The translations under genes were made by a program, and so were the position numbers. A stretch of 64,000 bases of DNA from Hoeflea sp. IMCC20628 (GTDB lineage: Bacteria; Pseudomonadota; Alphaproteobacteria; Rhizobiales; Rhizobiaceae): the NCBI RefSeq assembly GCF_001011155.1, contig NZ_CP011479.1:2436501-2500500 (forward strand), read 5' to 3'. Under the pieces are notes generated by a model. That model ran no database searches. It worked only from the letters and a program-made list of their open reading frames with translations, and was not told the DNA's origin. Positions 9,393 to 24,041 of this stretch are shown here, piece by piece (within the stretch, counting starts at the first letter, position 1; each line of letters opens with the position of its first letter).

Positions 9393-11534
9393 TCATGCCG
9401 CCGAATTGCGCTGACCCAGAGGCCCTGTTGGAAGACCTGGCGTCATCAGCAACACATCTCCAAAGCCCTGTTCGTTGAACTCCGCAAGGAACCGTCCCAC
9501 TTCCGATGCATCCGAGCGCAGGATGGACAGCACGATTTCACTGTTCTCCACCCGGGCAATGCGGGCAACCGCGGCCGCGTCAGCAGCACCGCATTCCACG
9601 ATGACCATGTCATAGGCTTCCGTCAGCGCGTCGATGATCATTGGCAACCGGTCGATCGCACGCATCGCGCGGCGTGCGTTGGCGTTGCCGTGCGGAATGA
9701 TGTGGGCTGATGACAACCGGTCGGGATGGATCGAATCTGCAATGGCGATATCGCCACACATCAGATCCGTCAGACCGGGCAAGCGCCGGGACTCGGCCAT
9801 CAGCTCGGTAGGACAGGCAGATCCGGTAAGATCGATCAACAAAGTCTTGAGGCCGTCGCCAGCAACCGTACGCGCCAGCATGACTGCTGCTGCTGACCCC
9901 TCGTCGCCCTCCGGCGATACACAGATCGCTACCGGAGTTCCGTCGGTGACGAGCTGGTCGGCGACCGACTCGACGCTGAAATCATCTGCGTCGTTGGAGA
10001 TGTTTGGCAGGGTCTCGATCGCCAGCTGCGGCTCGGCGGAAGGTTCACCGCCTGTGTCCTCGGCAACAGCCACGGAATGCTCATCAGTCGCCACGGAGTG
10101 CTCGTCTGTCTCGTCAGCATCGCGGATCAGGCCTGTGGATGGCCGCAAGGCCCGCCCGGAGAACAGCTCACCAAGCATCACCCCAATGGACGACAACAGG
10201 AAAGTCGCAAACGCGGCAACACCGATGATCGGCAGCATCTTGGGATAATGCGATTCTGAAGCCGGCACGGCGCGCGAAATCACCCGGGCATCGGCAGGCA
10301 AGGATTTTGGTTCGGTGCGTGAGGCAGCCTCGCGATAGCGTCCCAGATAGGTCTCGAGAAGATCGCGCTGAGCTGCAGCTTCGCGCTCCAGCGAGCGCAA
10401 TTCAACGGATTCCTCGCCTTCACGCGCAGAACCAGCCTTGAGTGCGTTGAGCTGGGCCGTCAGTTCTTCTTCGCGAATTCGCGCCACGCGCGTGTTGCTC
10501 TCCAAGCTTGACAGCACCTTGCGGATTTCGCTGTAGATTTGCCGTTCCACATCCTTCAGTTGGGCCCGCAGGCCTTTCATGCGCGGATGCGCCTCAAGCA
10601 AGGTGGTCGACAGATCGGCGATCTGTGCACGGATATTGCCTTCGCTTTCACGCAGACGCTGAACCACCGGCGAGCCCAGAACATCAGAAACCGCATCAAC
10701 TGCCTGGCCGTTACTCAGCGCGTTGCGGACCGATTGCGCCCGGGCTTCGGAATCTGCCCGTTCGGCACGAACCCGGCTCAATTCGGTTGAAATGTCGGAC
10801 AATTGCTTGGCCGCGATGGTGTCTTGCTGATTAACCAGCAGCAGCCCGGTTTCCGAGCGGTAGGCCGCGACTTTCTCTTCAGATTCGCGGACTTTTCCAC
10901 GCAGCCTGGCAATTTCCGGTTCCAGCCAGGCGCTGGCGTCGGTGTTGTTTTCGAGCTTTGCGCTCGACTGGAAGGCAAGATAGGCATCGACAAGCGCGTT
11001 TGGCACACGCGCGGCAAGCGCTGCGTCCTCTGATGAAAACTCGATCCCGATGACCCGCGATCCGGGCACAGCATAGACGTCGAGCTTCTTGAAGAACTCC
11101 TTCAGGATGCGCTCTTCGGCAGGCACATCAAGCGGGTTCTTCTTCAGCCCGATCATCACCAGCAGATCGCCAATCGCTGACGGATTTGCCGCGGGGTCAA
11201 ACTCTTCGCGAGACGACAGATCGAGCTCACGGGCCACCTGTTTGACAAGATCGGTCGACTTCAGAATCTCGACCTGGCTGGTCACCGCCCGCTCGTCCAG
11301 CGCTACATCTGCGGTCTGCTGGTTCTGGTCGCCCGAATAGACCGGCTCCCGGGTTTCGACCAACAACCGGGTCTCCGACTTGTAGAGCGGATTAATCATA
11401 CCGGTGACAAGAAAGGCCAGCCCCGCAGCGGCGGCAGTCAGCCCCAGGACGAGAGTCTTCCGCTCCCAGACGGCTGTTACCAGACGGCCAAGATCAATAT
11501 CGACATCGGGTTGCGGCGTTGCTGAAACGGACAT
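9393..11534 (-). CDS. Wzz/GumC-type polysaccharide co-polymerase with degenerate BY-kinase domain
   Basis: A 713-residue inner-membrane protein. Residues 1-60 hold the Wzz domain with TM1 (about 31-49); a long periplasmic coiled coil (about 200-420) follows; TM2 is at about 433-455. From residue 534 a P-loop-like domain begins: a strand, SPEGDEGSAAA where Walker A should be, TLLIDLTG for Walker A' and MVIVECG for Walker B. The Walker A Lys is absent and the C-terminal tail has no tyrosine cluster, so tyrosine kinase activity is unlikely. A 7-residue repeat TDEHSVA occurs twice between TM2 and this domain (DNA 10069-10110). Its role is likely control of chain length and export. An IS66 element sits 76 bases upstream of its start. 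Confidence 0.88.
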   Translation of the reverse strand: MSVSATPQPDVDIDLGRLVTAVWERKTLVLGLTAAAAGLAFLVTGMINPLYKSETRLLVETREPVYSGDQNQQTADVALDERAVTSQVEILKSTDLVKQVARELDLSSREEFDPAANPSAIGDLLVMIGLKKNPLDVPAEERILKEFFKKLDVYAVPGSRVIGIEFSSEDAALAARVPNALVDAYLAFQSSAKLENNTDASAWLEPEIARLRGKVRESEEKVAAYRSETGLLLVNQQDTIAAKQLSDISTELSRVRAERADSEARAQSVRNALSNGQAVDAVSDVLGSPVVQRLRESEGNIRAQIADLSTTLLEAHPRMKGLRAQLKDVERQIYSEIRKVLSSLESNTRVARIREEELTAQLNALKAGSAREGEESVELRSLEREAAAQRDLLETYLGRYREAASRTEPKSLPADARVISRAVPASESHYPKMLPIIGVAAFATFLLSSIGVMLGELFSGRALRPSTGLIRDADETDEHSVATDEHSVAVAEDTGGEPSAEPQLAIETLPNISNDADDFSVESVADQLVTDGTPVAICVSPEGDEGSAAAVMLARTVAGDGLKTLLIDLTGSACPTELMAESRRLPGLTDLMCGDIAIADSIHPDRLSSAHIIPHGNANARRAMRAIDRLPMIIDALTEAYDMVIVECGAADAAAVARIARVENSEIVLSILRSDASEVGRFLAEFNEQGFGDVLLMTPGLPTGPLGQRNSAA

Positions 11535-11602
11535 GCGAGGGCTACTCCATACTTACACTTGCGGAGAAGCGTAAACGAACATGGTAACGCAACGGTTAAG
11601 GG

Positions 11603-11610
11603 GCCGGTGA
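11603..11610. repeat. 8-bp target duplication, left of IS66 copy 1
   Basis: GCCGGTGA directly before the left end of the element; the same 8 bases follow the right end at 12986-12993. Eight-base duplications are characteristic of IS66-family insertion. Confidence 0.93.
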
Positions 11611-12985
11611 GTAATTACCCACCCCTGAATTCGTGATTTCCGGTTCTTCTACCGGCCTATGCCAGGACGGATGCGATGACCTGGAAGGGGTTTGCGCCTT
11701 TGAGGCGTGCGGTATCGACTGTCGTGCGTATGTTCGCTTCGGCTTGGGCGGCCCACATGGCGCGATATCCGTTTGTCACCTTTCGCTGAATGACCCATGG
11801 ACGGAGCTTTCGCTCAGATGTGTTGTTGGTGACATCGACTTCTCCGGGATAGTCGCAAAACGTCAGCAGCTGATCGCGGGCCCGCCCGATCTTGGCCTGG
11901 AGCTTTTGGGCCAGGTCGCATGAAGTCGGGGCGCATAGAAGCCCGGCAAGCTGTTTATCGAATTTGCGCTTCTTGCTTGCGACGGTAGACGCAGCGAATG
12001 TGCTTATGGCTCTGGCGAAATCAAACACACGGCCAAACCAAAGCTGGAAGCGAAGAGGGAGATCATCCTCGCCATGTTCCAGCGCAAAGGCTGTATCACG
12101 CGCCAAATGTGCAAGGCAGGTTTGATGTCGATGGCCGTGAGATTGCTGGGCTGAATACCGATCAGATATCCATACCTCGGGGACATGGCCGCCCATGGTC
12201 TCGTGAACGACCCGTGCTGCACGGGAGTAATCGGGCTGGTGGACAACGGCATCCTTGCAATGAAAAACCCAGTGTTGGGCATTTGTGCCCTCAATACGCA
12301 CACCGGTTTCGTCGCTGGCGACAACGCGGGCGGCTCGAAGGCTGGCCTTGGCGGCCTGTGCTGTGGCCTGGAAGCTCGGACGGGAGCGGGCAAACATGTT
12401 CATGATCGCGCCCTCGCTCGCATGGAGGCCGAAGATATCCATGAACACACCGCTCAGGCGTTCGTAAGACAATGCATGGAAACTCTTGAGGTAGATCGCC
12501 AGCGCGTGAATGCCTGGCCCGAACGGCGTTGCGGTTGCCACGGCAGGTGCGGTGGCTTTTGTCGTCGTGCCGCATTGCGGGCAATGACAGGAAAAACGCC
12601 GATGCCGGGTGACATGAGGACGGATCGCAGGAATATCGATCTCGTCATAGGCCCCGGCCAGCACCATCGTATCATCACCGGAAAACGCATGGCCGCATCT
12701 CTTGCAGGCGGTCGGTTCATGATCGCGAAACATGTCGGCAAAATCCGCCAGCACCCTATTGTGGGGTTCATGCCCGGGCTTGGCTCCACCCGGTCGTGAG
12801 TTGACGCGTTTCTCTTTCTTGTCCGTAGAGGGCGGCTTGGAAGACGTCCGAGAATCCTTGGCAGGCCGTTGGAGCCGAAGCACCATCTCGATCAATTCGT
12901 CCTTGCTCAGCTGCTGCAAATCAGTCCGATCCATATCATCATGGATTCAGACATTGTGGTGCATGGCAAGGGGGTGGGTAATTAC
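11611..12985 (-). mobile_element. Complete IS66-family element (ISBst12-like), copy 1
   Basis: A 1375-bp element with 15-bp terminal inverted repeats beginning GTAATTACCCACCCC at both ends, and an 8-bp target duplication. The ends start with GTAA as is usual in IS66. It carries one long transposase gene and lacks the small tnpA/tnpB genes of classical IS66, which is the ISBst12 subgroup pattern. It differs from copy 2 by one substitution that I could find. It is inserted in the intergenic region between the minus-strand co-polymerase gene and the plus-strand export lipoprotein gene. Confidence 0.95.
11657..12934 (-). CDS. IS66-family transposase (ISBst12 group), copy 1
   Basis: A 425-residue transposase. 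Order of parts: N-terminal LSKDELIEMVLRLQ leucine-rich helix, RTSSKPPSTDKKEKR and the conserved Arg/Gly/Pro-rich linker PGGAKPGHEPHNR, a zinc-finger-like region with CKRCGH and CHCPQC, then the DDE domain with ASDETGVRI (first Asp), WISDRYSAQQ (second Asp) and the Glu in NNTSERKLRPWV. All catalytic positions are present, so the protein is probably active. Confidence 0.95.
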   Translation of the reverse strand: MDRTDLQQLSKDELIEMVLRLQRPAKDSRTSSKPPSTDKKEKRVNSRPGGAKPGHEPHNRVLADFADMFRDHEPTACKRCGHAFSGDDTMVLAGAYDEIDIPAIRPHVTRHRRFSCHCPQCGTTTKATAPAVATATPFGPGIHALAIYLKSFHALSYERLSGVFMDIFGLHASEGAIMNMFARSRPSFQATAQAAKASLRAARVVASDETGVRIEGTNAQHWVFHCKDAVVHQPDYSRAARVVHETMGGHVPEVWISDRYSAQQSHGHRHQTCLAHLARDTAFALEHGEDDLPLRFQLWFGRVFDFARAISTFAASTVASKKRKFDKQLAGLLCAPTSCDLAQKLQAKIGRARDQLLTFCDYPGEVDVTNNTSERKLRPWVIQRKVTNGYRAMWAAQAEANIRTTVDTARLKGANPFQVIASVLA

Positions 12986-12993
12986 GCCGGTGA
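12986..12993. repeat. 8-bp target duplication, right of IS66 copy 1
   Basis: GCCGGTGA, identical to 11603-11610. Matching duplications on both sides mean copy 1 inserted here and has not exchanged flanks with another copy since. Confidence 0.93.
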
Positions 12994-13139
12994 CGCTTCC
13001 TTTACCTTTGGCGCCCTGCTCCAGAGCGCAGCTTTTTCACCCGACGCCACATTTATCTGCGGAGTTTTACCGCCCGTTAACCCTAATGGATCGATAACGG
13101 TAATCGAAATTCACACGTTTCGCGTGGAGCACGTAAAGA

Positions 13140-13715
13140 ATGAAACCCGCCAAGTCCAAAGTGACGACCCTGCTGGCGGCCGCCATGACTTCAGTCATGC
13201 TGGCGGGATGTTCCGGCTATCATCCGGCGCCCAAGGCATTCCATGAAGCCGTGATGCAGCCCTACCGGCTTGATGCGGGAGACCGATTGCGCGTCACCGT
13301 TTTCGAGCAGACAGGATTGACCGGAACCTATTCCATTGACCAGGCCGGTTATATCGCCTTTCCGCTGATCGGTGCCGTGCCGGCGCGCGGACGGACGCTG
13401 CAGGAGATGGAAGGCACGATCGCCGGAAGCCTGCGGCAAGGCTATCTGCGCGATCCGGACGTAACCATTGAAATCGACCGGTACCGTTCATTTTTCGTCC
13501 TGGGTGAGGTTGGTCAGGCCGGGCAGTATTCCTACGTCGCCGGAATGACCGTACAAAATGCTATCGCCATCGCTGGTGGTTACTCGGCAAGAGCCTATCA
13601 ACACAATGTCGACATTACCCGCAACATCAACGGCGAAATCATGACTGGTCGGGTGAAGATTACCGATCCGATCCTTGCGGGTGACACGATTTATGTGCGC
13701 GAGCGGTTGTTCTAA
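13140..13715 (+). CDS. Wza-type polysaccharide export lipoprotein
   Basis: A 191-residue protein. The signal peptide ends in a lipobox, LAGC (Cys about residue 24), so it should be anchored to the outer membrane. The poly_export (SLBB-type) core follows: YRLDAGDRLRVTVFEQ, YSIDQAGYIAFPLIGAV and LRDPDVTIEI. Then one SLBB-like repeat, VLGEVGQAGQYSYVAGMTVQNAIAIAGGYS. It is shorter than E. coli Wza (about 380) and similar to rhizobial ExoF-like short forms. It opens the plus-strand gene set wza-like, glycosyltransferase, WcaJ-like, Wzy-like; the next start is only 4 bases away. Confidence 0.9.
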   Translation: MKPAKSKVTTLLAAAMTSVMLAGCSGYHPAPKAFHEAVMQPYRLDAGDRLRVTVFEQTGLTGTYSIDQAGYIAFPLIGAVPARGRTLQEMEGTIAGSLRQGYLRDPDVTIEIDRYRSFFVLGEVGQAGQYSYVAGMTVQNAIAIAGGYSARAYQHNVDITRNINGEIMTGRVKITDPILAGDTIYVRERLF

Positions 13716-13719
13716 CACC

Positions 13720-14868
13720 ATGGTTTCAGACAAGCCCTTGCGGATCCTGCATTGCTTCCGGTCACCGGTGGGTGGAATTTTCCGCCATGTCCGGGATCTG
13801 GCGGAAGAACATGCCAAGGCGGGTCATCAAGTCGGTATCATCTGCGATTCCAACACCGGCGGCGCCTATGAGGACGCCCTGTTTGAAAGCATCATGCCAC
13901 ATCTGGCGCTCGGGCTCACACGCTTGCCCATGCGCCGGTCCCTCGGAATTTCCGACATCGCGATAGCAGTCAAAACCTTTCGTGAAGTCAAAAGTTTGCA
14001 GCCGGATGTGTTGCACGGACATGGCGCCAAGGGCGGCGCTTACGTGCGACTTGCCGGCTCCCAGTTACGGGTATCCCAGTCTCGCGTTGCCCGTTTTTAT
14101 TCACCGCACGGCGGAAGCCTGCATTACGACCAGAAAACACTGCGCGGCCAGGCCTACTTCGCCATCGAACGGCTGCTTGAACGCTGGACGGACAGGCTAA
14201 TCTTTGTCTCGGACTACGAGCGGCGGACCTATGAGGAAAAAATAGGAAAGCCGCGCGCCGAGTGGCGTCTGATCCACAATGGGCTGCGCGCGCATGAATT
14301 TGAGCCAGTCGAAAACGTTTCGGACGCGGTGGATTTTCTCTATATCGGCATGATGCGCGACCTCAAGGGACCGGATGTGTTCATTGAGGCGATGCGGCGG
14401 GCCGAGCAACTGGCGGGAAAGCCGTTGCGCGGCGTCATGGTCGGTGACGGCGAGGACAAGCCACGCTACCAGGCGCGGCTCGACGCGCTCGGCATGGGTG
14501 ACCGGGTGACAATGCGCGATGCGATGCCTGCACGGGAAGCCTTTGCGCTTGCCCGCACAGTTGTTGTTCCGTCCCGGGCTGAATCCATGCCCTATATCGT
14601 TTTGGAAGCGGTTGCCGCTGGCAAGCCGGTGATTTCGACGCAGGTTGGCGGCATCCCTGAAATTCTCGGGCCTGACTTTGCAGGTTTCGTGCCGCCCGGA
14701 GATGCCGAATCGCTTGCCGGTGCGATGGCCAAGACCATCAACAACACGGACTGGTTACCCTCGGCGATGCCGGAGATGGACAGTTTTCGCAGTCATTTTT
14801 CTGCGCTGACAATGGCCGAACGGATGTCGGCCGTCTATCAGGAATGCCAGATCGGCACTGTTTCCTGA
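13720..14868 (+). CDS. GT4-type family glycosyltransferase
   Basis: A 382-residue GT-B enzyme. The N-terminal acceptor domain has LRILHCFRSPVGGIFRHVRDLAEEHAKAGH with the glycine loop, and DVLHGHGAKGG; the C-terminal donor domain has VDFLYIGMMRDLKGPDVFIEA, RGVMVGDGEDK and the sugar-nucleotide motif VVPSRAESMPYIVLEAVAAGKPVISTQVGGIPEI (E-x7-E). It should transfer a sugar to the lipid-linked repeat unit at the cytosolic face. The ATG at 13720, four bases after the previous stop, is preferred over an overlapping upstream start at 13675. Confidence 0.9.
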   Translation: MVSDKPLRILHCFRSPVGGIFRHVRDLAEEHAKAGHQVGIICDSNTGGAYEDALFESIMPHLALGLTRLPMRRSLGISDIAIAVKTFREVKSLQPDVLHGHGAKGGAYVRLAGSQLRVSQSRVARFYSPHGGSLHYDQKTLRGQAYFAIERLLERWTDRLIFVSDYERRTYEEKIGKPRAEWRLIHNGLRAHEFEPVENVSDAVDFLYIGMMRDLKGPDVFIEAMRRAEQLAGKPLRGVMVGDGEDKPRYQARLDALGMGDRVTMRDAMPAREAFALARTVVVPSRAESMPYIVLEAVAAGKPVISTQVGGIPEILGPDFAGFVPPGDAESLAGAMAKTINNTDWLPSAMPEMDSFRSHFSALTMAERMSAVYQECQIGTVS

Positions 14869-14948
14869 GCGAATAGCCAACGGCGTCAAGCCTTTCTTAG
14901 GGTGCACATGCTATCCCGGTAGCATGAGTTTCCGGGGAGAGTTCGGCC

Positions 14949-16514
14949 GTGAACAAGATCGACAATCACAACACCTTCAGTTCGGCATCCATTCGCAAGG
15001 CGATGGCCGAGATTGAAACCAAGCCGGGCCCGAAGGGCAAGGACGGCGAAACCGGTATCCAAATGAGCCGCCTGGCGCTTCAAACCGCCAACCGGCTCTC
15101 GCAGGAAAACTACTCCCCGACCATGATCATCGGCACGCTGCGGCTTGCGGAATTTGCACTGATCGCAATTACCGGGTTTGTCGTTTACGCTCTCTATGTC
15201 GGCATTACCCAAGAGGCAACGCTGCTCTACTACGGACCGGCCATTCTCATCGGATCTTCGTTGGTGGTTCTGCTGATTCAGATCGCAGACGGCTATCAGG
15301 TCCCGGCGCTCCGAAGCGCCCTGAAAACCTTGCCCAAGGTGCTGTCGTCATGGGCCATCGCGTTTGCGGTGATCGCCCTGGTGGCCTTCTTTCTACAATA
15401 CAGTCTGGCATTCTCGCGGGTGTGGTTTGCCGCCTGGTTCATTTCCGGCGCCGTTTCCCTCATCATCAGCCGCAACATCGTCGCCTATGGCATTCGTCGC
15501 TGGGCACGCAACGGGGTGATGGAACGCCGCGCCATCATCGTCGGCGGCGGCGAGATCGCAAAGGCGCTGATCCGGTCCATCGAACAGGACGCCGACAACG
15601 ATATCCGTATCTGTGGCTTCTTTGATGATCGTGACGAACGGCGCTCGCCGTCAATGGTGGCAGGCTATCCGAAACTCGGCAATATCGACTCGCTGATGGC
15701 ATTTGCCCGTATGGCCCGCATCGACATGCTGATCATCGCGCTGCCGCTCAATGCTGAATCGCGGGTGTTGCAGTTGCTCAAGAAGCTCTGGATCCTGCCG
15801 CTCGACATCCGCCTTGCAGCGCACGCCAACAAGCTCCGGTTCCGGCCACGCGCCTATTCCTACGTCGGCGCCGTGCCGATGCTCGACATTTTCGACCGTC
15901 CTATCACCGACTGGGATTCGGTGGCCAAGCGGATTTTCGACGTGTTCTTTTCGCTGCTGGCGATTGCGCTGCTGTGGCCGGTGATGATCGGAGCGGCGAT
16001 AGCCATCAAGCTCGATTCCAAGGGACCGGTCCTGTTCAAGCAGAAACGCCACGGCTTCAACAATGAAGTTGTGGAAGTGTTCAAGTTCCGGTCGATGTAT
16101 ACAGATCAATGCGATCCCACCGCGCGCGCTGCCGTCACCAAGGGTGATCCGCGCGTCACCAAGGTGGGCCGCTTCATCAGAAAGACGTCAATCGACGAAC
16201 TGCCTCAGTTCTTCAATGTTCTGCGCGGCAATCTTTCGCTGGTCGGACCGCGGCCCCACGCCGTTGTCGCAGCCACCCATGACCGGCTGTTCGCAGAAGT
16301 CGTTGACGGCTACTTCGCCCGTCACCGGGTCAAGCCGGGCGTGACCGGCTGGGCCCAGATCAACGGCTGGCGCGGCGAGATCGACAATGACGAAAAGATC
16401 AAGCAACGCACCGCCTGCGATCTCTACTACATCGAGAACTGGTCACTGCTGTTTGATCTCAAGATCCTGTTTCTCACGCCGATCCGGCTGTTCAACACGG
16501 AACACGCCTATTGA
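14949..16514 (+). CDS. Undecaprenyl-phosphate sugar phosphotransferase (WcaJ/ExoY type)
   Basis: A 521-residue polyprenol-phosphate hexose-1-phosphate transferase. The start is GTG at 14949 after GGGGAG. Four N-terminal membrane helices (about 60-190) are followed by a CoA-binding-like nucleotide fold (RRAIIVGGGEIAKALI), a fifth hydrophobic segment (about 330-355), and the catalytic domain with KRIFDVFFSLLAI, PVLFKQKRHGFNNEVVEVFKFRSM, RKTSIDELPQFFNVLRGNLSLVGPRPH and KPGVTGWAQINGWRGE. It starts repeat-unit assembly by moving a sugar phosphate, often glucose, to undecaprenyl phosphate. Confidence 0.93.
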   Translation: MNKIDNHNTFSSASIRKAMAEIETKPGPKGKDGETGIQMSRLALQTANRLSQENYSPTMIIGTLRLAEFALIAITGFVVYALYVGITQEATLLYYGPAILIGSSLVVLLIQIADGYQVPALRSALKTLPKVLSSWAIAFAVIALVAFFLQYSLAFSRVWFAAWFISGAVSLIISRNIVAYGIRRWARNGVMERRAIIVGGGEIAKALIRSIEQDADNDIRICGFFDDRDERRSPSMVAGYPKLGNIDSLMAFARMARIDMLIIALPLNAESRVLQLLKKLWILPLDIRLAAHANKLRFRPRAYSYVGAVPMLDIFDRPITDWDSVAKRIFDVFFSLLAIALLWPVMIGAAIAIKLDSKGPVLFKQKRHGFNNEVVEVFKFRSMYTDQCDPTARAAVTKGDPRVTKVGRFIRKTSIDELPQFFNVLRGNLSLVGPRPHAVVAATHDRLFAEVVDGYFARHRVKPGVTGWAQINGWRGEIDNDEKIKQRTACDLYYIENWSLLFDLKILFLTPIRLFNTEHAY

Positions 16515-17872: not shown

Positions 17873-17949
17873 TGGTCGGAGCGGCGGGATTCGAACCCAC
17901 GACCCCTTGTCCCCCAGACAAGTGCGCTACCGGGCTGCGCTACGCTCCG
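17873..17949 (-). tRNA. tRNA-Pro (anticodon GGG)
   Basis: Minus-strand cloverleaf of 77 bases with CCA encoded. Acceptor arms CGGAGCG and CGCTCCG pair fully; the anticodon stem CTTGT/ACAAG encloses a loop CTGGGGG, giving anticodon GGG; the T-arm has GGGTTCGAATCCC. It reads CCC proline codons. It lies 130 bases past the polymerase gene, on the opposite strand. No attachment-site duplication was seen near its 3' end. Confidence 0.96.
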
Positions 17950-17989: not shown

Positions 17990-18259
17990 GGCCGGTTTTG
18001 ATTTTTGCGGCAAAATCCATGCTGGATTTCTGTCACCGACACCCCGGAGGTTCTCCCGAATCCAGGCGAGACCACCAATTCTCACCCCCAACAATTTCAA
18101 TGCAATTGTTAGATGTGTTCCGGCTTTATCAAATGTTCCTTTAACCTTGAATCGTAGTTTGGACGACAGAAATACCAGAAAACAGGGCAGAAGATGACCG
18201 TTCGACAAGACAAATCGACGCCAACCGCCCGAGCCAGGTACAGATTCAGGGATATCGAG
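17990..18259. other. Upstream region of first tadG-like gene, with block shared by its paralogue
   Basis: No gene is seen here. TTGTTAGATGT at 18106-18116 and TTTAACCTTG at 18140-18149 are also found before the second tadG-like gene, at 22268-22278 and 22302-22311. The two blocks are exactly 23 bases apart in both places and lie about 105-110 bases before each start. The paralogues therefore appear to share a duplicated control region. Confidence 0.55.
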
Positions 18260-19828
18260 ATGCTGAAGAAAGCCGCCGTGCTTAAAGACACATCCGGCAA
18301 TTTTGGGATGGCATTCGCCATCCTTTCCGTGCCGGTCATGCTGGCTGGCGGGCTCGCGGTCGACTATGTCGGTTTGAGCGTTCAAAAGAGAGAATTACAG
18401 AACGCGACGGATGCAGCCGCATTGGCGGTTGCCCGCGAAGGCAATGTCACCGGCCAGCAAGCAGTAGAGATCGCACGTCAAATCGTTGCCGCCAATTACG
18501 GCTTCACCGCCGCGCAGATCACTGCCACCTCGGAAGACGGGGTCGCAAGCGTGAATGCAAGCATCGACAAGCCACTGGTTTTTGGCGGGCTCATGAGCAA
18601 GACGTCCATGCTGGTGGATGCCACTTCGGAAGCAACCTATGCTTCCACCAAATACGAAATCGCGCTCGTGCTCGATACCACCAACTCAATGTTGGGCGGG
18701 AAACTGGTGACATTGCAGAACGCCATCATTGGCCTTGTTGAGGATATTGAAGGACTGGGTCTTGCAAAGGACCAGGTCAAGATTGCACTCGTCCCCTACT
18801 CGGGCTTTGTCAACGTCGGTCCGGAATTCGGCCCAGTGATCAACGGCGGTGGCAAGGTCAAGACTCCTGCGGCCGACTGGCTTGATCAGGACGCCAAGGC
18901 GCCAATCCCGCAATCGGATTTGCCGTCGGAGTTCAGCCGCTTCGCCATGTTCAGGCATTTGAAGGTGGATTGGCCCGGATGTGTGGAAACCCGTGTGCCC
19001 AATGGCAGCGCCTTGCACGACGTGTATGACACCGTTCCCGACCCGGCAGACAAGCAGTCGCTGTTCACGCCGTTCTTTGCAGTCGATGAACCCGACATCC
19101 CGCTGTTGTATGCAAATTCCTACCTGGCGGATTCCGGACTGCCTCTAATTGGCAAAGGCGCGACGGAAACCGACAAGGAAGATCAACTTGCTCGCTATGG
19201 CCGTACGGGCAAATACGTCAAACCAAAGGATACGGATGACGCCATCGTCCAGGTGATGAAATGGAAGAAGCCGAAGACAGATTTTTCGCCTTCCAGTACG
19301 CTTTCCATCCGGTCTGCACCTAAAGGCCCTGGCTTTGGCTGCGAAGCTGAGCCGCTGGTGACGCTGACAACCGACTTTACCGAGATCAAGGCATCAGTGA
19401 AAAATCTCACAGCCTCCGGAACCAACAATATGCTGGAAGGTGTGATGTGGGGCTGGCGGGTGCTTTCGAGCCGCGAACCCTTTACCGAAGGTGCAGCTGA
19501 AGGCTCGAGCGGTGTCGAGAGAATCATGATCTTCGTCAGCGATGGCCAGAATTCCTTTGGCAATCTGAGCAATCTCATGGGGTCGGGTTACACCAGCATG
19601 GGTTACCTGGTTGACGGCCGGCTGGATGGTATCACCGCCGCAAGCTCTGGTCAGACTGCCACGGCGCTCGACAAGAAAACACTGGCCGCCTGCACCAATG
19701 CCAAGGAAGACGGCATTGAGATCTACACGGTGCGGCTCGAAAAACCCATCGTCAGCACGGAAACAGTATTGTCGGAGTGCGCCTCCACGGTAATTACCCA
19801 CCCCCTTGCCATGCACCACAATGTCTGA
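18260..19828 (+). pseudogene. TadG-like VWA pilus-assembly protein, interrupted by IS66 (5' part)
   Basis: ATG at 18260 follows AGGGA at good spacing. 510 native codons run to 19789; the frame then enters the IS, adds 12 foreign residues and stops at 19828. Native parts: a Tad-type N-terminal helix (FGMAFAILSVPVMLAGGLAVDYVGLSV), the ELQNATDAAALAVAR stretch typical of TadG N-termini, and a VWA-like domain with VLDTTNSM at the metal-binding site (the paralogue has VLDTTGSM). The missing 31 residues lie beyond the IS array at 21965-22060, in frame. Joining them gives 541 residues, exactly the length of the intact paralogue. Loss is therefore recent. Confidence 0.93.
19782..19789. repeat. 8-bp target duplication, left of the IS66 array
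   Basis: CCTCCACG before the left end of copy 2; identical bases at 21957-21964 after the right end of the truncated copy 3. The outer ends of the array thus belong to one original insertion. Confidence 0.93.
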
Positions 19829-21164
19829 ATCCATGATGATATGGATCGGACTGATTTGCAGCAGCTGAGCAAGGACGAATTGATCGAGATGGTGCTTCGG
19901 CTCCAACGGCCTGCCAAGGATTCTCGGACGTCTTCCAAGCCGCCCTCTACGGACAAGAAAGAGAAACGCGTCAACTCACGACCGGGTGGAGCCAAGCCCG
20001 GGCATGAACCCCACAATAGGGTGCTGGCGGATTTTGCCGACATGTTTCGCGATCATGAACCGACCGCCTGCAAGAGATGCGGCCATGCGTTTTCCGGTGA
20101 TGATACGATGGTGCTGGCCGGGGCCTATGACGAGATCGATATTCCTGCGATCCGTCCTCATGTCACCCGGCATCGGCGTTTTTCCTGTCATTGCTCGCAA
20201 TGCGGCACGACGACAAAAGCCACCGCACCTGCCGTGGCAACCGCAACGCCGTTCGGGCCAGGCATTCACGCGCTGGCGATCTACCTCAAGAGTTTCCATG
20301 CATTGTCTTACGAACGCCTGAGCGGTGTGTTCATGGATATCTTCGGCCTCCATGCGAGCGAGGGCGCGATCATGAACATGTTTGCCCGCTCCCGTCCGAG
20401 CTTCCAGGCCACAGCACAGGCCGCCAAGGCCAGCCTTCGAGCCGCCCGCGTTGTCGCCAGCGACGAAACCGGTGTGCGTATTGAGGGCACAAATGCCCAA
20501 CACTGGGTTTTTCATTGCAAGGATGCCGTTGTCCACCAGCCCGATTACTCCCGTGCAGCACGGGTCGTTCACGAGACCATGGGCGGCCATGTCCCCGAGG
20601 TATGGATATCTGATCGGTATTCAGCCCAGCAATCTCACGGCCATCGACATCAAACCTGCCTTGCACATTTGGCGCGTGATACAGCCTTTGCGCTGGAACA
20701 TGGCGAGGATGATCTCCCTCTTCGCTTCCAGCTTTGGTTTGGCCGTGTGTTTGATTTCGCCAGAGCCATAAGCACATTCGCTGCGTCTACCGTCGCAAGC
20801 AAGAAGCGCAAATTCGATAAACAGCTTGCCGGGCTTCTATGCGCCCCGACTTCATGCGACCTGGCCCAAAAGCTCCAGGCCAAGATCGGGCGGGCCCGCG
20901 ATCAGCTGCTGACGTTTTGCGACTATCCCGGAGAAGTCGATGTCACCAACAACACATCTGAGCGAAAGCTCCGTCCATGGGTCATTCAGCGAAAGGTGAC
21001 AAACGGATATCGCGCCATGTGGGCCGCCCAAGCCGAAGCGAACATACGCACGACAGTCGATACCGCACGCCTCAAAGGCGCAAACCCCTTCCAGGTCATC
21101 GCATCCGTCCTGGCATAGGCCGGTAGAAGAACCGGAAATCACGAATTCAGGGGTGGGTAATTAC
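19790..21164 (+). mobile_element. Full-length IS66-family element, copy 2
   Basis: 1375 bp with the same ends as copy 1 but in the opposite orientation. Its left flank is the duplication CCTCCACG but its right flank is TGAACATG, the first bases of the truncated copy 3, so it has no matching duplication of its own. One substitution against copy 1 was noted, at 20195 (Pro to Ser in the transposase), which lies in the 583 bases that copy 3 lacks. This fits a hybrid element whose 5' part came from an older copy. Confidence 0.94.
19841..21118 (+). CDS. IS66-family transposase (ISBst12 group), copy 2
   Basis: A 425-residue transposase identical to copy 1 except Ser for Pro between the two Cys of the CHC-x-QC zinc-finger-like motif (CHCSQC). 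The DDE residues in ASDETG, WISDRYS and NNTSERK are intact. The substitution lies between metal-binding Cys residues and may be tolerated. Confidence 0.94.
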   Translation: MDRTDLQQLSKDELIEMVLRLQRPAKDSRTSSKPPSTDKKEKRVNSRPGGAKPGHEPHNRVLADFADMFRDHEPTACKRCGHAFSGDDTMVLAGAYDEIDIPAIRPHVTRHRRFSCHCSQCGTTTKATAPAVATATPFGPGIHALAIYLKSFHALSYERLSGVFMDIFGLHASEGAIMNMFARSRPSFQATAQAAKASLRAARVVASDETGVRIEGTNAQHWVFHCKDAVVHQPDYSRAARVVHETMGGHVPEVWISDRYSAQQSHGHRHQTCLAHLARDTAFALEHGEDDLPLRFQLWFGRVFDFARAISTFAASTVASKKRKFDKQLAGLLCAPTSCDLAQKLQAKIGRARDQLLTFCDYPGEVDVTNNTSERKLRPWVIQRKVTNGYRAMWAAQAEANIRTTVDTARLKGANPFQVIASVLA

Positions 21165-21956
21165 TGAACATGTTTGCCCGCTCCCGTCCGAGCTTCCAGG
21201 CCACAGCACAGGCCGCCAAGGCCAGCCTTCGAGCCGCCCGCGTTGTCGCCAGCGACGAAACCGGTGTGCGCATCGAGGGCACGAATGCTCAGCACTGGGT
21301 TTTTCATTGCAAGGATGCCGTTGTCCACCAGCCCGATTACTCCCGTGCAGCACGGGTCGTTCACGAGACCATGGGCGGCCATGTCCCCGAGGTATGGATA
21401 TCTGATCGGTATTCAGCCCAGCAATCTCACGGCCACCGACATCAAACCTGCCTTGCACATTTGGCGCGTGATACAGCCTTTGCGCTGGAACATGGCGAGG
21501 ATGATCTCCCTCTTCGCTTCCAGCTTTGGTTTGGCCGTGTGTTTGATTTCGCCAGAGCCATAAGCACATTCGCTGCGTCTACCGTCGCAAGCAAGAAGCG
21601 CAAATTCGATAAACAGCTTGCGGGGCTTCTATGCGCCCCGACTTCATGCGACCTGGCCCAAAAGCTCCAGGCCAAGATCGGGCGGGCCCGCGATCAGCTG
21701 CTGACGTTTTGCGACTATCCCGGAGAAGTCGATGTCACCAACAACACATCTGAGCGAAAGCTCCGTCCATGGGTCATTCAGAGAAAGGTGACAAACGGAT
21801 ATCGCGCCATGTGGGCCGCCCAAGCCGAGGCGGATGTACGCACAACCGTCGATACCGCCCGCCTTAAAGGCGCAAATCCCTTCCAGGTTATCGCATCCGT
21901 CTTGGCGTAGGCCGACATCAAGGCCCGAAATCATAAATTCAGGGGTGGGTAATTAC
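21165..21956 (+). mobile_element. 5'-truncated IS66-family element, copy 3
   Basis: 792 bp corresponding to bases 584-1375 of the full element, directly joined to the right end of copy 2. The right end GTAATTAC (minus-strand sense) is intact and is followed by the outer duplication CCTCCACG. It has diverged: several substitutions in the coding part and a clearly different stretch between the transposase stop and the right end. It is thus the oldest copy here. Confidence 0.92.
21170..21910 (+). pseudogene. IS66 transposase remnant (C-terminal 246 residues)
   Basis: The frame begins at the internal MFARSRPSF segment and continues to the normal C-terminus, including the three DDE positions. The N-terminal zinc-finger and DNA-binding part is missing, so the product, if made, should be inactive. 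An AU-rich start site is not evident. Confidence 0.88.
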
Positions 21957-22060
21957 CCTCCACGAAAAGCCACTACTTCGACGCGCCATCGCGGCAGCAG
22001 CTTGCGCCGATCATGGACGCGATCAAGAAGGGCGTGGTCCAACTGCGCATCACTTCCTGA
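21957..22060 (+). pseudogene. TadG-like gene, 3' part beyond the IS66 array
   Basis: After the duplicated CCTCCACG, the frame continues KSHYFDAPSRQQLAPIMDAI and KKGVVQLRITS then TGA. The intact paralogue ends KAHFFDAPSRQQLAPIFDAI, KKGVVKLRLSS, confirming the match. Together with 18260-19789 this completes the broken gene. Confidence 0.92.
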
Positions 22061-22415
22061 CAGACAGATCGGGAAGCATAGCCAATGGAAAAGGCCGGGA
22101 CAGTGCCAAACAGTCCGGGTCTTCTCTATGAGAGAACTTTGCTGCGCGTAGTCGCGAAACCTGACCGGCCATTCCGAACGATGGCAGTACTTATCATCTG
22201 ACACCGAGGCGTCCAAAGAACCTCAGGTAGCGCAAAGAGTGCCAGACCCCTCCGAAAAATATGGCAGTTGTTAGATGTTTCATCGTTTTCTAAACCGAAC
22301 ATTTAACCTTGTAGCTTACAAAATAGGCAAGTTCCGGACCTGACCATTGCAAAGAGGTTCGCTTCGGAACGCACATCGCCTTTTGATCGCAACACGACAG
22401 GAGCCAGTTCGGATT
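22061..22415. other. Upstream region of second tadG-like gene
   Basis: No gene is seen. The block TTGTTAGATGT (22268-22278) and TTTAACCTTG (22302-22311) repeats the arrangement found before the first paralogue. The part near 22090-22130 holds a GC-rich imperfect dyad that could be a weak terminator for the broken gene. Confidence 0.45.
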
Positions 22416-24041
22416 ATGCAGAAACAAGCATCAATCTTCCGGGATAAATCCGGAAACTTCGGCCTGGCTTTCGCAATTCTTTCCGTACCGGTCATGCTGG
22501 CTGGTGGGTTGGCGGTCGATTATGTCGGTTTGAGCGTCGAAAAAAGCGAGTTGCAGAATGCATCCGATGCAGCTGCACTGGCGGTTGCCCGGGAAGGCAA
22601 CCTCACCGACAAACAGGCTCTGGAGATGGCACGTCAAACCATTGCTGCCAACTACGGATACACCGCCGCGCAGGTTTCTGTCACGATGAAAGACGGCGTC
22701 GCGGCCGTTGACGCCAGCGTCGACATACCATTGATCTTCGGTGGCTTCATGGGCAAGAAGTTCATACCGGTGAATGTCGCTTCGGAAGCAACTTTTGCCT
22801 ATACGAAATATGAAATTGCGCTGGTGCTCGACACCACCGGCTCGATGGCCGGTGGCAAGCTTGTTTCCTTGCAAGACGCCGTCATCGGCTTGGTCGACGG
22901 TATGGAAGCGCTGGGACTGCAGAAGGATCAGATCAAGTTCGCACTGGTTCCCTATGCCGGTTTTGTCAATGTCGGGCCCGATTATGGTCCGAAGGTCGAT
23001 GGTCTGGGGCTGATTTCCAAGCCCGGTGCCGATTGGCTGGATCAGGATGCCAAGGCGCCGGTCTCTCAATCTGACTTGCCATCGGAGTTCAGCCGGTTCG
23101 CGATGTACAAGCACCTGGGCGCCAAATGGCCTGGCTGTGTGGAAACCCGTATTCCCGAAGGCAAAGCCCAGCATGATGTCGATGATACGGTGCCCGACAT
23201 CACCAATGCCAAATCACTCTTCACACCGTTCTTTGCCAGCGACGAACCGGATGTCGCATGGAAATATCCGAATTCCTACCTCCCGGATGAAGGACAACCG
23301 ATCAAGGGCAAGAACGCGACAGAGACGGATAAGGAAAACCAGCTTGTTCGCTATGGCATGACCGAGAAATACGAAAAGCCGAAAAATGTTCTCGACGCAA
23401 TCATTAAAACCCTCAAGTGGAAGAAGCCGAAAATCGACGATTCTCCGTCGTCCTTCTACTCAAACAAATCCGACCCGAAGGGTCCCGGCTTTGGCTGCGA
23501 AGTCGAACCGCTGGTGCCACTGACCGCGAAGTTCAGCGATATCACCAAGACCGTGAAGAAGCTTGAAGCCAATGGCTCTACCAACATGCTCGAAGGCGTG
23601 ATGTGGGGATGGCGGGTGCTTTCCAGCCGCGAGCCCTTTAGCGGTGGTGCGGACGAAAGTGACAGTTCGGTCGAAAAGATCATGATCTTCCTGACCGACG
23701 GCAAGAACTCCTTCGGCAATCTCAACAACGATCTCGGGTCTGATTACACCAGCATGGGATATCTGGTTGACGGGCGCCTGGACAATCTGACCGCCGCGTC
23801 CGCAAATCAAACCACCAGCGCGCTGGACAAGAAGACCCTGTCCGCCTGCACCAACGCCAAGGCGGACGGCATCGAGATATATACAATCCGGCTCGAGGAA
23901 CCAGATCTTGCGACAGGCAACCTGCTTTCCGAATGCGCTTCAACAAAGGCCCATTTCTTTGACGCCCCGTCGCGCCAGCAGCTTGCACCGATCTTCGACG
24001 CCATCAAGAAGGGCGTGGTGAAACTCCGGCTCAGCTCGTAA
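22416..24041 (+). CDS. TadG-like VWA-domain pilus-assembly protein
   Basis: A 541-residue protein with an N-terminal hydrophobic helix (about residues 15-37, FGLAFAILSVPVMLAGGLAVDYVG), the ELQNASDAAALAVAR motif of TadG N-termini, and a VWA-like domain starting YEIALVLDTTGSMAGGKL, whose DxTxS-type motif can bind a metal. A later IFLTDGKNSFG matches the second VWA strand. TadG-type proteins are envelope proteins of the Tad (Flp) pilus system. No other tad gene is nearby, so these are orphan copies. The ATG at 22416 matches the paralogue start; a strong terminator follows. Confidence 0.85.
   Translation: MQKQASIFRDKSGNFGLAFAILSVPVMLAGGLAVDYVGLSVEKSELQNASDAAALAVAREGNLTDKQALEMARQTIAANYGYTAAQVSVTMKDGVAAVDASVDIPLIFGGFMGKKFIPVNVASEATFAYTKYEIALVLDTTGSMAGGKLVSLQDAVIGLVDGMEALGLQKDQIKFALVPYAGFVNVGPDYGPKVDGLGLISKPGADWLDQDAKAPVSQSDLPSEFSRFAMYKHLGAKWPGCVETRIPEGKAQHDVDDTVPDITNAKSLFTPFFASDEPDVAWKYPNSYLPDEGQPIKGKNATETDKENQLVRYGMTEKYEKPKNVLDAIIKTLKWKKPKIDDSPSSFYSNKSDPKGPGFGCEVEPLVPLTAKFSDITKTVKKLEANGSTNMLEGVMWGWRVLSSREPFSGGADESDSSVEKIMIFLTDGKNSFGNLNNDLGSDYTSMGYLVDGRLDNLTAASANQTTSALDKKTLSACTNAKADGIEIYTIRLEEPDLATGNLLSECASTKAHFFDAPSRQQLAPIFDAIKKGVVKLRLSS

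Follow-up and report, generated by a model that had tools for sequence, protein, structure and literature searches.

The IS66 array that interrupts a TadG-like gene in Hoeflea sp. IMCC20628 is very probably a copy of a self-nested mobile unit of 2167 bp, whose nesting took place earlier and elsewhere. Because the same 2167 bp with the same junction are found at seven sites of the genome, and target duplications can be traced at six of these, the array most likely reached the gene ready-made, as one unit. Beyond this, and with only a slight preference, we read the genome as having preserved a full cycle of an insertion sequence (IS): self-nesting, spread of the nested unit to several sites and recombination that frees chimeric 1375-bp elements, which spread in turn.

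The array in the TadG-like gene

The window, i.e. the whole stretch of 64,000 nucleotides analysed here, is G000:C1:2436501-2500500 of a genome of 5.12 Mb in 3 contigs. The features needed for the argument are given below in window positions. A type denotes the base of the full IS copy and C type the base of the fragment behind it, at 30 diagnostic sites.

11603-11610 and 12986-12993: target duplication of copy 1, GCCGGTGA (plus strand sequence)
11611-12985, minus strand: simple A-type copy, "copy 1" (L010), with its own target duplication
18260-19789, plus strand: 5' part of the TadG-like gene, 510 codons, with Tad N-terminal domain and VWA domain (PF13400, PF00092)
19782-19789, plus strand: left copy of the target duplication, CCTCCACG, 8 bp
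19790-21956, plus strand: composite unit, 2167 bp, one of seven in the genome
19790-21164, plus strand: full A-type single-ORF IS66 copy, 1375 bp, whose first 15 and last 15 bases are perfect terminal inverted repeats
19841-21118, plus strand: transposase ORF, 425 aa, IS66 family (PF03050, E 1.4e-31; NF033517, 263.6 bits, cut-off 180)
21165-21956, plus strand: diverged C-type fragment, IS bases 584-1375, right end included (from the base alignment)
21165-21172, plus strand: TGAACATG, putative remaining half of the ancestral IS-into-IS target duplication
21957-21964, plus strand: right copy of the target duplication, CCTCCACG, 8 bp
21965-22060, plus strand: stranded 3' remnant of the TadG-like gene, with the last 31 residues and the stop (from reading the frame)
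22416-24041, plus strand: intact tandem paralogue of 541 aa, its frame extending upstream as far as a TTG at 22347

The copies were aligned base by base. The full copy differs from copy 1 by a single substitution, at IS position 406 (20195 in the window), whereas fragment and full copy are separated by 30 substitutions and no indels. The preliminary description of this DNA had named 20195 as the sole substitution against copy 1 and had the full 1375-bp copy run directly into bases 584-1375 of a diverged copy; the alignment agrees base for base, the fragment adjoining the full copy without a gap at 21164/21165. Its remark that 583 and 792 add up to 1375 is correct as a sum, but this shows only that the fragment reaches the right end free of indels and is not independent evidence. 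CCTCCACG is present at exactly the coordinates reported for it (19782-19789 and 21957-21964), and this flanking duplication supports the view that the outer ends of the array stem from one insertion.

The ORF of the host gene continues upstream of 18260 as far as an ATG at 18194; it now enters the IS and stops at 19828. A profile search of 18194-19828 matched PF13400 (50.4 bits against a cut-off of 22.3, E 2.9e-13) and PF00092 (25.4 bits against a cut-off of 23.8, E 1.8e-05), i.e. the TadE/G-like N-terminal region and the VWA domain by which a TadG-like protein is recognised, in line with the identity proposed earlier. The gene had been called broken by the array. It is indeed interrupted, but the damage is confined to its 3' end: 510 own codons, counted from 18260, are retained and followed by 12 IS codons and a stop, and the last 31 residues of the product are lost. 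Removal of the array was said to restore the length of the paralogue, and it does: with the flanks read separately, the joined frame comes by arithmetic to 542 codons including the stop, or 541 residues, the length of the paralogue read from 22416. The paralogue reads through the position equivalent to the insertion site, and so does an intact homologue of 559 aa in the genus-mate G017, with a DNA identity of 80% to the left flank and, over 83 bases, of 90% to the right flank. The stretch lost by clipping is alike in the stranded end, the paralogue and the G017 homologue. Genes of polysaccharide type lie near the TadG-like gene, at 9393-16514, according to a profile scan of the neighbours.

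Copies of the unit in the genome

A search of the same genome for the IS gave at least 42 matches, the best 40 of 65 first-look candidates being scored. By pattern (at most 3 mismatches), 32 left and 40 right IS ends were counted, and all of them are explained by 30 full copies, seven fragments 584-1375 and five other pieces (1-1166, 276-1375, 1-971, 964-1375 and 1144-1375); this census covers pieces with at least one IS end, and pieces that have neither end may escape it. Seven of the 30 full copies are part of composites and 23 are simple. Each of the seven fragments follows a full copy with the identical junction, so that every unit measures exactly 2167 bp, and two separate junction searches both counted seven junctions in the genome.

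This recurrence bears directly on the history proposed in the preliminary description, in which the array was a single local product: a C copy inserted into the TadG-like gene, an A copy inserted into the C copy at TGAACATG, and the middle was then lost by recombination between the 5' parts. Junction and outer duplication agree with such a course of events. However, the same 2167-bp unit with the same junction is present at seven genome sites, and the six further loci would have to have been seeded from here or to have arisen by repeated identical events. Moreover, there is no spare left end for a C-type left part, since full copies account for 30 of the 32 left ends and the pieces 1-1166 and 1-971 for the other two. 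The base at 20195, offered as evidence for the recombination, fails as such because the variant is not private to the array of the window: 406T is found in the window composite and in the simple copies L020, L022 and L023, and only there. Taken as an account of this gene, the local history is very unlikely. What remains of it is the entry of one copy into another at TGAACATG, which the junction fits but which most likely happened in another place, and recombination between 5' parts as a possible origin of the first unit, now deprived of its SNP support.

The target duplications of the composites differ from site to site. Four of the seven composites have exact and mutually different 8-bp duplications, CCTCCACG in the window and GATTTCGC, CGCTACCG and TATTATAA elsewhere; by our own arithmetic, a chance match of 8-bp flanks is expected at about 1.5e-5 per site. 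Composite 1313907 (plus strand) has AACAGCGT on its left and CGTTATGG on its right, and composite 1323173 (minus strand) has CGTTATGG on its left and AACAGCGT on its right, as an inversion between two oppositely oriented composites would give. Altogether, target duplications are traceable at six of the seven. Composite 4049349 lies inside another IS copy, which it splits into 1-971 and 964-1375 with bases 964-971 duplicated, and the interrupted copy retains its own outer duplication, CCGACCAC. The flanks of composite 3493659, ATAGAATG and CCGAACCG, differ from each other; this one composite of seven lacks a target duplication, which counts against movement as a unit. Intact duplications around a composite could also result if resident simple copies were converted by a composite.

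The sequence types among the composites point to copying of the whole unit and, in addition, to some exchange. The fragment is of C type at all 30 sites in four composites and a mosaic in the other three (4049349, 3493659 and 3596298), with A bases at 6 of the first 7 sites. Composites 4049349 and 3493659 are identical over 2167 bp, mosaic fragment included, and lie more than 0.5 Mb apart, as expected if the unit is copied whole. In composite 1323173 the full copy is of C type from 1201 onwards, and this 3' part indicates that exchange between copies occurs as well. From 1201 to the right end, all seven composites have the C base at each of the 23 diagnostic sites, and 13 of the 23 simple full copies are of A type at all 30 sites.

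Could the composites have arisen where they stand, from resident simple copies with duplications of their own that were converted by one founder? Exchange is visible in the mosaic fragments (3 of 7) and in the C-type 3' part of one full copy, and rearrangements at 1313907-1323173 would also suit this explanation. It would, however, require two events per site and not one. It also sits badly with the right ends, C type in all seven composites, whereas A-type right ends are present in 13 of the 23 simple copies: the chance that six conversions would hit no A-type right end is about 0.45^6, or about 0.008, by our own arithmetic, which assumes the present pool. We consider conversion improbable. 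That the assembly produced tandem or mis-joined IS copies is scarcely credible; repeats of 1.4-2.2 kb are difficult for short reads, but the genome is in 3 contigs, and a recurrence with varied fragments and different exact duplications would hardly come from a mis-join. Arrival of the array as a ready-made unit is the reading that we carry forward.

Origin of the unit and chimeric simple copies

The junction is best explained if one IS had earlier inserted into a diverged relative at TGAACATG. An A-type single-ORF IS66 element would have inserted, at a place other than this gene, into a C-type relative at base 584, and a derivative consisting of the whole A copy and the last 792 bp of the C copy would then have been mobilised. 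In transposition, this unit would use the left end of A together with the right end of C, presumably driven by the transposase of a full copy; junctions and target duplications are the structural features that suggest its movement. The first unit may have arisen when the mixed pair of ends was used in the nested precursor, without any deletion. The same product would result from recombination between the 5' parts or from a deletion beside the A left end. The left junction of the nested precursor was found in none of 18 genus genomes, G000 included (pattern, at most 3 mismatches), and no left part in the genome of the window could be assigned with certainty to the C type. Tested as C type, with related copies of the genome G003 (D type) as outgroup, the 5' part of the full copy showed 6-7 differences in 583 bases, a number that by our own rough arithmetic does not discriminate.

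The unit has one left and two right ends and contains a 792-bp direct repeat. Homologous recombination between its halves would delete 792 bp and collapse the composite to a 1375-bp element whose left part is A and whose right part is C. Nine simple copies, L020-L028, have an A-type left and a C-type right part and may have arisen in this way. The switch from A to C lies between 1041 and 1201 in eight of them and between 1201 and 1248 in L020; L021 and L024 have the A base again at 1284. Copies from outside the genome identify the C type as the probable foreign right end. Over bases 1201-1375, the D-type copies of G003 differ from A at 9 and from C at 20 of 175 positions, the copy of G009 at 12 and 24 and that of G010 at 13 and 26, respectively; the C2 fragment of the genome of the window, with 17 differences from A and 18 from C, does not discriminate.

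A further full simple copy, L030, is probably a tenth chimera. It is of C type at all 30 sites, and its bases 536A, 869A and 1237A are otherwise found only in composites 1313907 (536A and 1237A) and 1323173 (all three). L030 sits in a local duplication. We also considered it as a surviving C ancestor, which is less likely in view of these three bases, common to L030 and composites, and of the local duplication.

Exact 8-bp target duplications flank six of the copies L020-L028, and L026 has one of 9 bp. These are no proof that the chimeras moved, since a duplication would survive the collapse of a composite in place. Chimeras of identical sequence are found at several sites (L025-L028 at four, L022 with L023 and L021 with L024 at two each), which suggests, as far as sequence comparison goes, that the chimeras themselves did move. 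Since 406T is limited to L020, L022, L023 and the window composite, these three look like offspring of a window-like composite. The breakpoints point the same way: eight of the nine fall in one 159-base interval, though intervals of 143 and 185 bases were also open to them. Release of chimeras as part of the cycle would then be represented by two breakpoint intervals, or by three with L030, and here, too, we lean only a little towards this reading.

Occurrence elsewhere and relation to known systems

The composite junction (at most 3 mismatches) was found in one of 18 genus genomes and in one of 297 family genomes, themselves a sample of a larger group; in both cases this was the genome of the window itself. 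With the best 16 candidates per genome scored, the whole 2167-bp unit was likewise found only there. Searches for the exact junction patterns gave no hit in genome_contigs or viral_contigs, and megablast gave no match in a plasmid set, all three sets being ones that may omit the genome of the window. By blastn, 26 plasmid records matched at 60-80% identity. G003 has at least 22 full simple D-type copies (at least 24 matches, the best 40 of 62 candidates scored), and the composite junction (at most 3 mismatches) was not found in it. Relatives of the IS are also present on contigs of Hoeflea sp. BRH_c9 and NORP7; NCBI assigns this genus to the Rhizobiaceae. In open-licence papers we found no description of a self-nested IS66 unit.

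If our interpretation is correct, a single-ORF IS66 element from a little-studied group would be able to work with either of two right ends, and a single genome would keep a record of how nesting, spread and collapse followed one another. This would suggest a simple way for insertion sequences to become chimeric, with self-nesting as a route to the exchange of right ends and to new IS lineages. It also advises caution: the rest of a genome should be checked before a local history is inferred for an IS array.

Profile matches to PF03050 and NF033517 predict an IS66-type DDE transposase for the element of the window. The 8-bp target duplication of the IS66 family is exact in 17 of the 23 simple full copies; among the six exceptions, the repeat of L026 is 9 bp long, that of L023 has one mismatch in 8, and L013, L014, L024 and L030 have none. 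The 1375 bp hold one transposase ORF of 425 aa, and the further ORFs called mechanically inside the IS all overlap this gene. This fits the ISBst12 group of the IS66 family, which comprises single-ORF elements such as ISDge4, whose transposition was called by its authors the first reported active transposition in this group (PMC12898284). The element shares with ISDge4 one IS66-family transposase ORF, terminal inverted repeats and 8-bp duplications (PMC12898284); unlike ISDge4 as described there, it also exists as a full copy joined to a relative's right half, a fusion that is apparently mobile.

Transposable modules (TMos), as reported for ISPme1 and ISEcp1 of the IS1380 family, consist of a single IS that is mobile together with an adjacent segment (PMC9330008, PMC3281130). 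The composite resembles them in that one IS and its adjacent DNA form a unit, whose movement we infer. The segment of a TMo is other genomic DNA, whereas the adjacent 792 bp are IS sequence here, derived from a sister IS and bounded by a genuine right end. For TMos the review mentions misrecognition of the terminal structure (PMC9330008, PMC3281130), and the IS of the composite belongs to another family than theirs. A composite transposon, with two IS and a core, differs in another way: the unit has one complete IS, its second copy being without the left 583 bp, and neither a core nor a passenger gene. What it would have in common with a composite transposon, as portrayed in these sources, is that a larger unit is moved by means of IS ends (PMC3281130, PMC9330008).

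Other insertions in the window

Besides the composite, the window carries a simple copy of the 1375-bp IS66-family element, bounded by the target duplication GCCGGTGA; the gap between genes that it occupies has the look of a divergent promoter region. The right part of the composite itself contains an open frame, which starts at an internal ATG and spans the C-terminal part of the transposase. Against NF033517 this frame scored 166.7 bits, under the cut-off of 180; any function in regulation is speculative.

9393-11534, minus, Wzz-type gene, left neighbour
11603-12993, simple IS copy with its target duplication
13140-13715, plus, polysaccharide export gene, right neighbour
17873-17949, minus, tRNA-Pro (ggg), immediately ahead of both TadG-like genes
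21170-21910, open frame, 246 aa

Clustered and partial copies elsewhere in the genome

The following regions, on the contig that carries the window, hold full or partial copies of the element.

G000:C1:1313000-1324000 (L035), IS cluster, four units in 9.3 kb
G000:C1:4046000-4053000 (L031), IS cluster, copies spanning about 5 kb
G000:C1:2078579-2079678 (L037), partial copy, bases 276-1375
G000:C1:4200760-4201925 (L036), partial copy, bases 1-1166

At L031, a composite splits a second IS copy, which is located 111 bases beyond a simple one. L035 comprises two composites, whose flanks are swapped with each other, and two simple copies, and an exact 311-bp duplication lies between successive units. 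The partial copies L036 and L037 break at a common sequence, TGTCCGTCGTCAGA and its complement, which is perhaps the end of another mobile element.

Related copies in the genus

A genome of the same genus, G003, harbors at least 22 full simple copies of a related type, which are nearly identical; at one place (G003:C1:3005941-3007649), bases 1-334 of one copy are followed by a full copy in inverse orientation.
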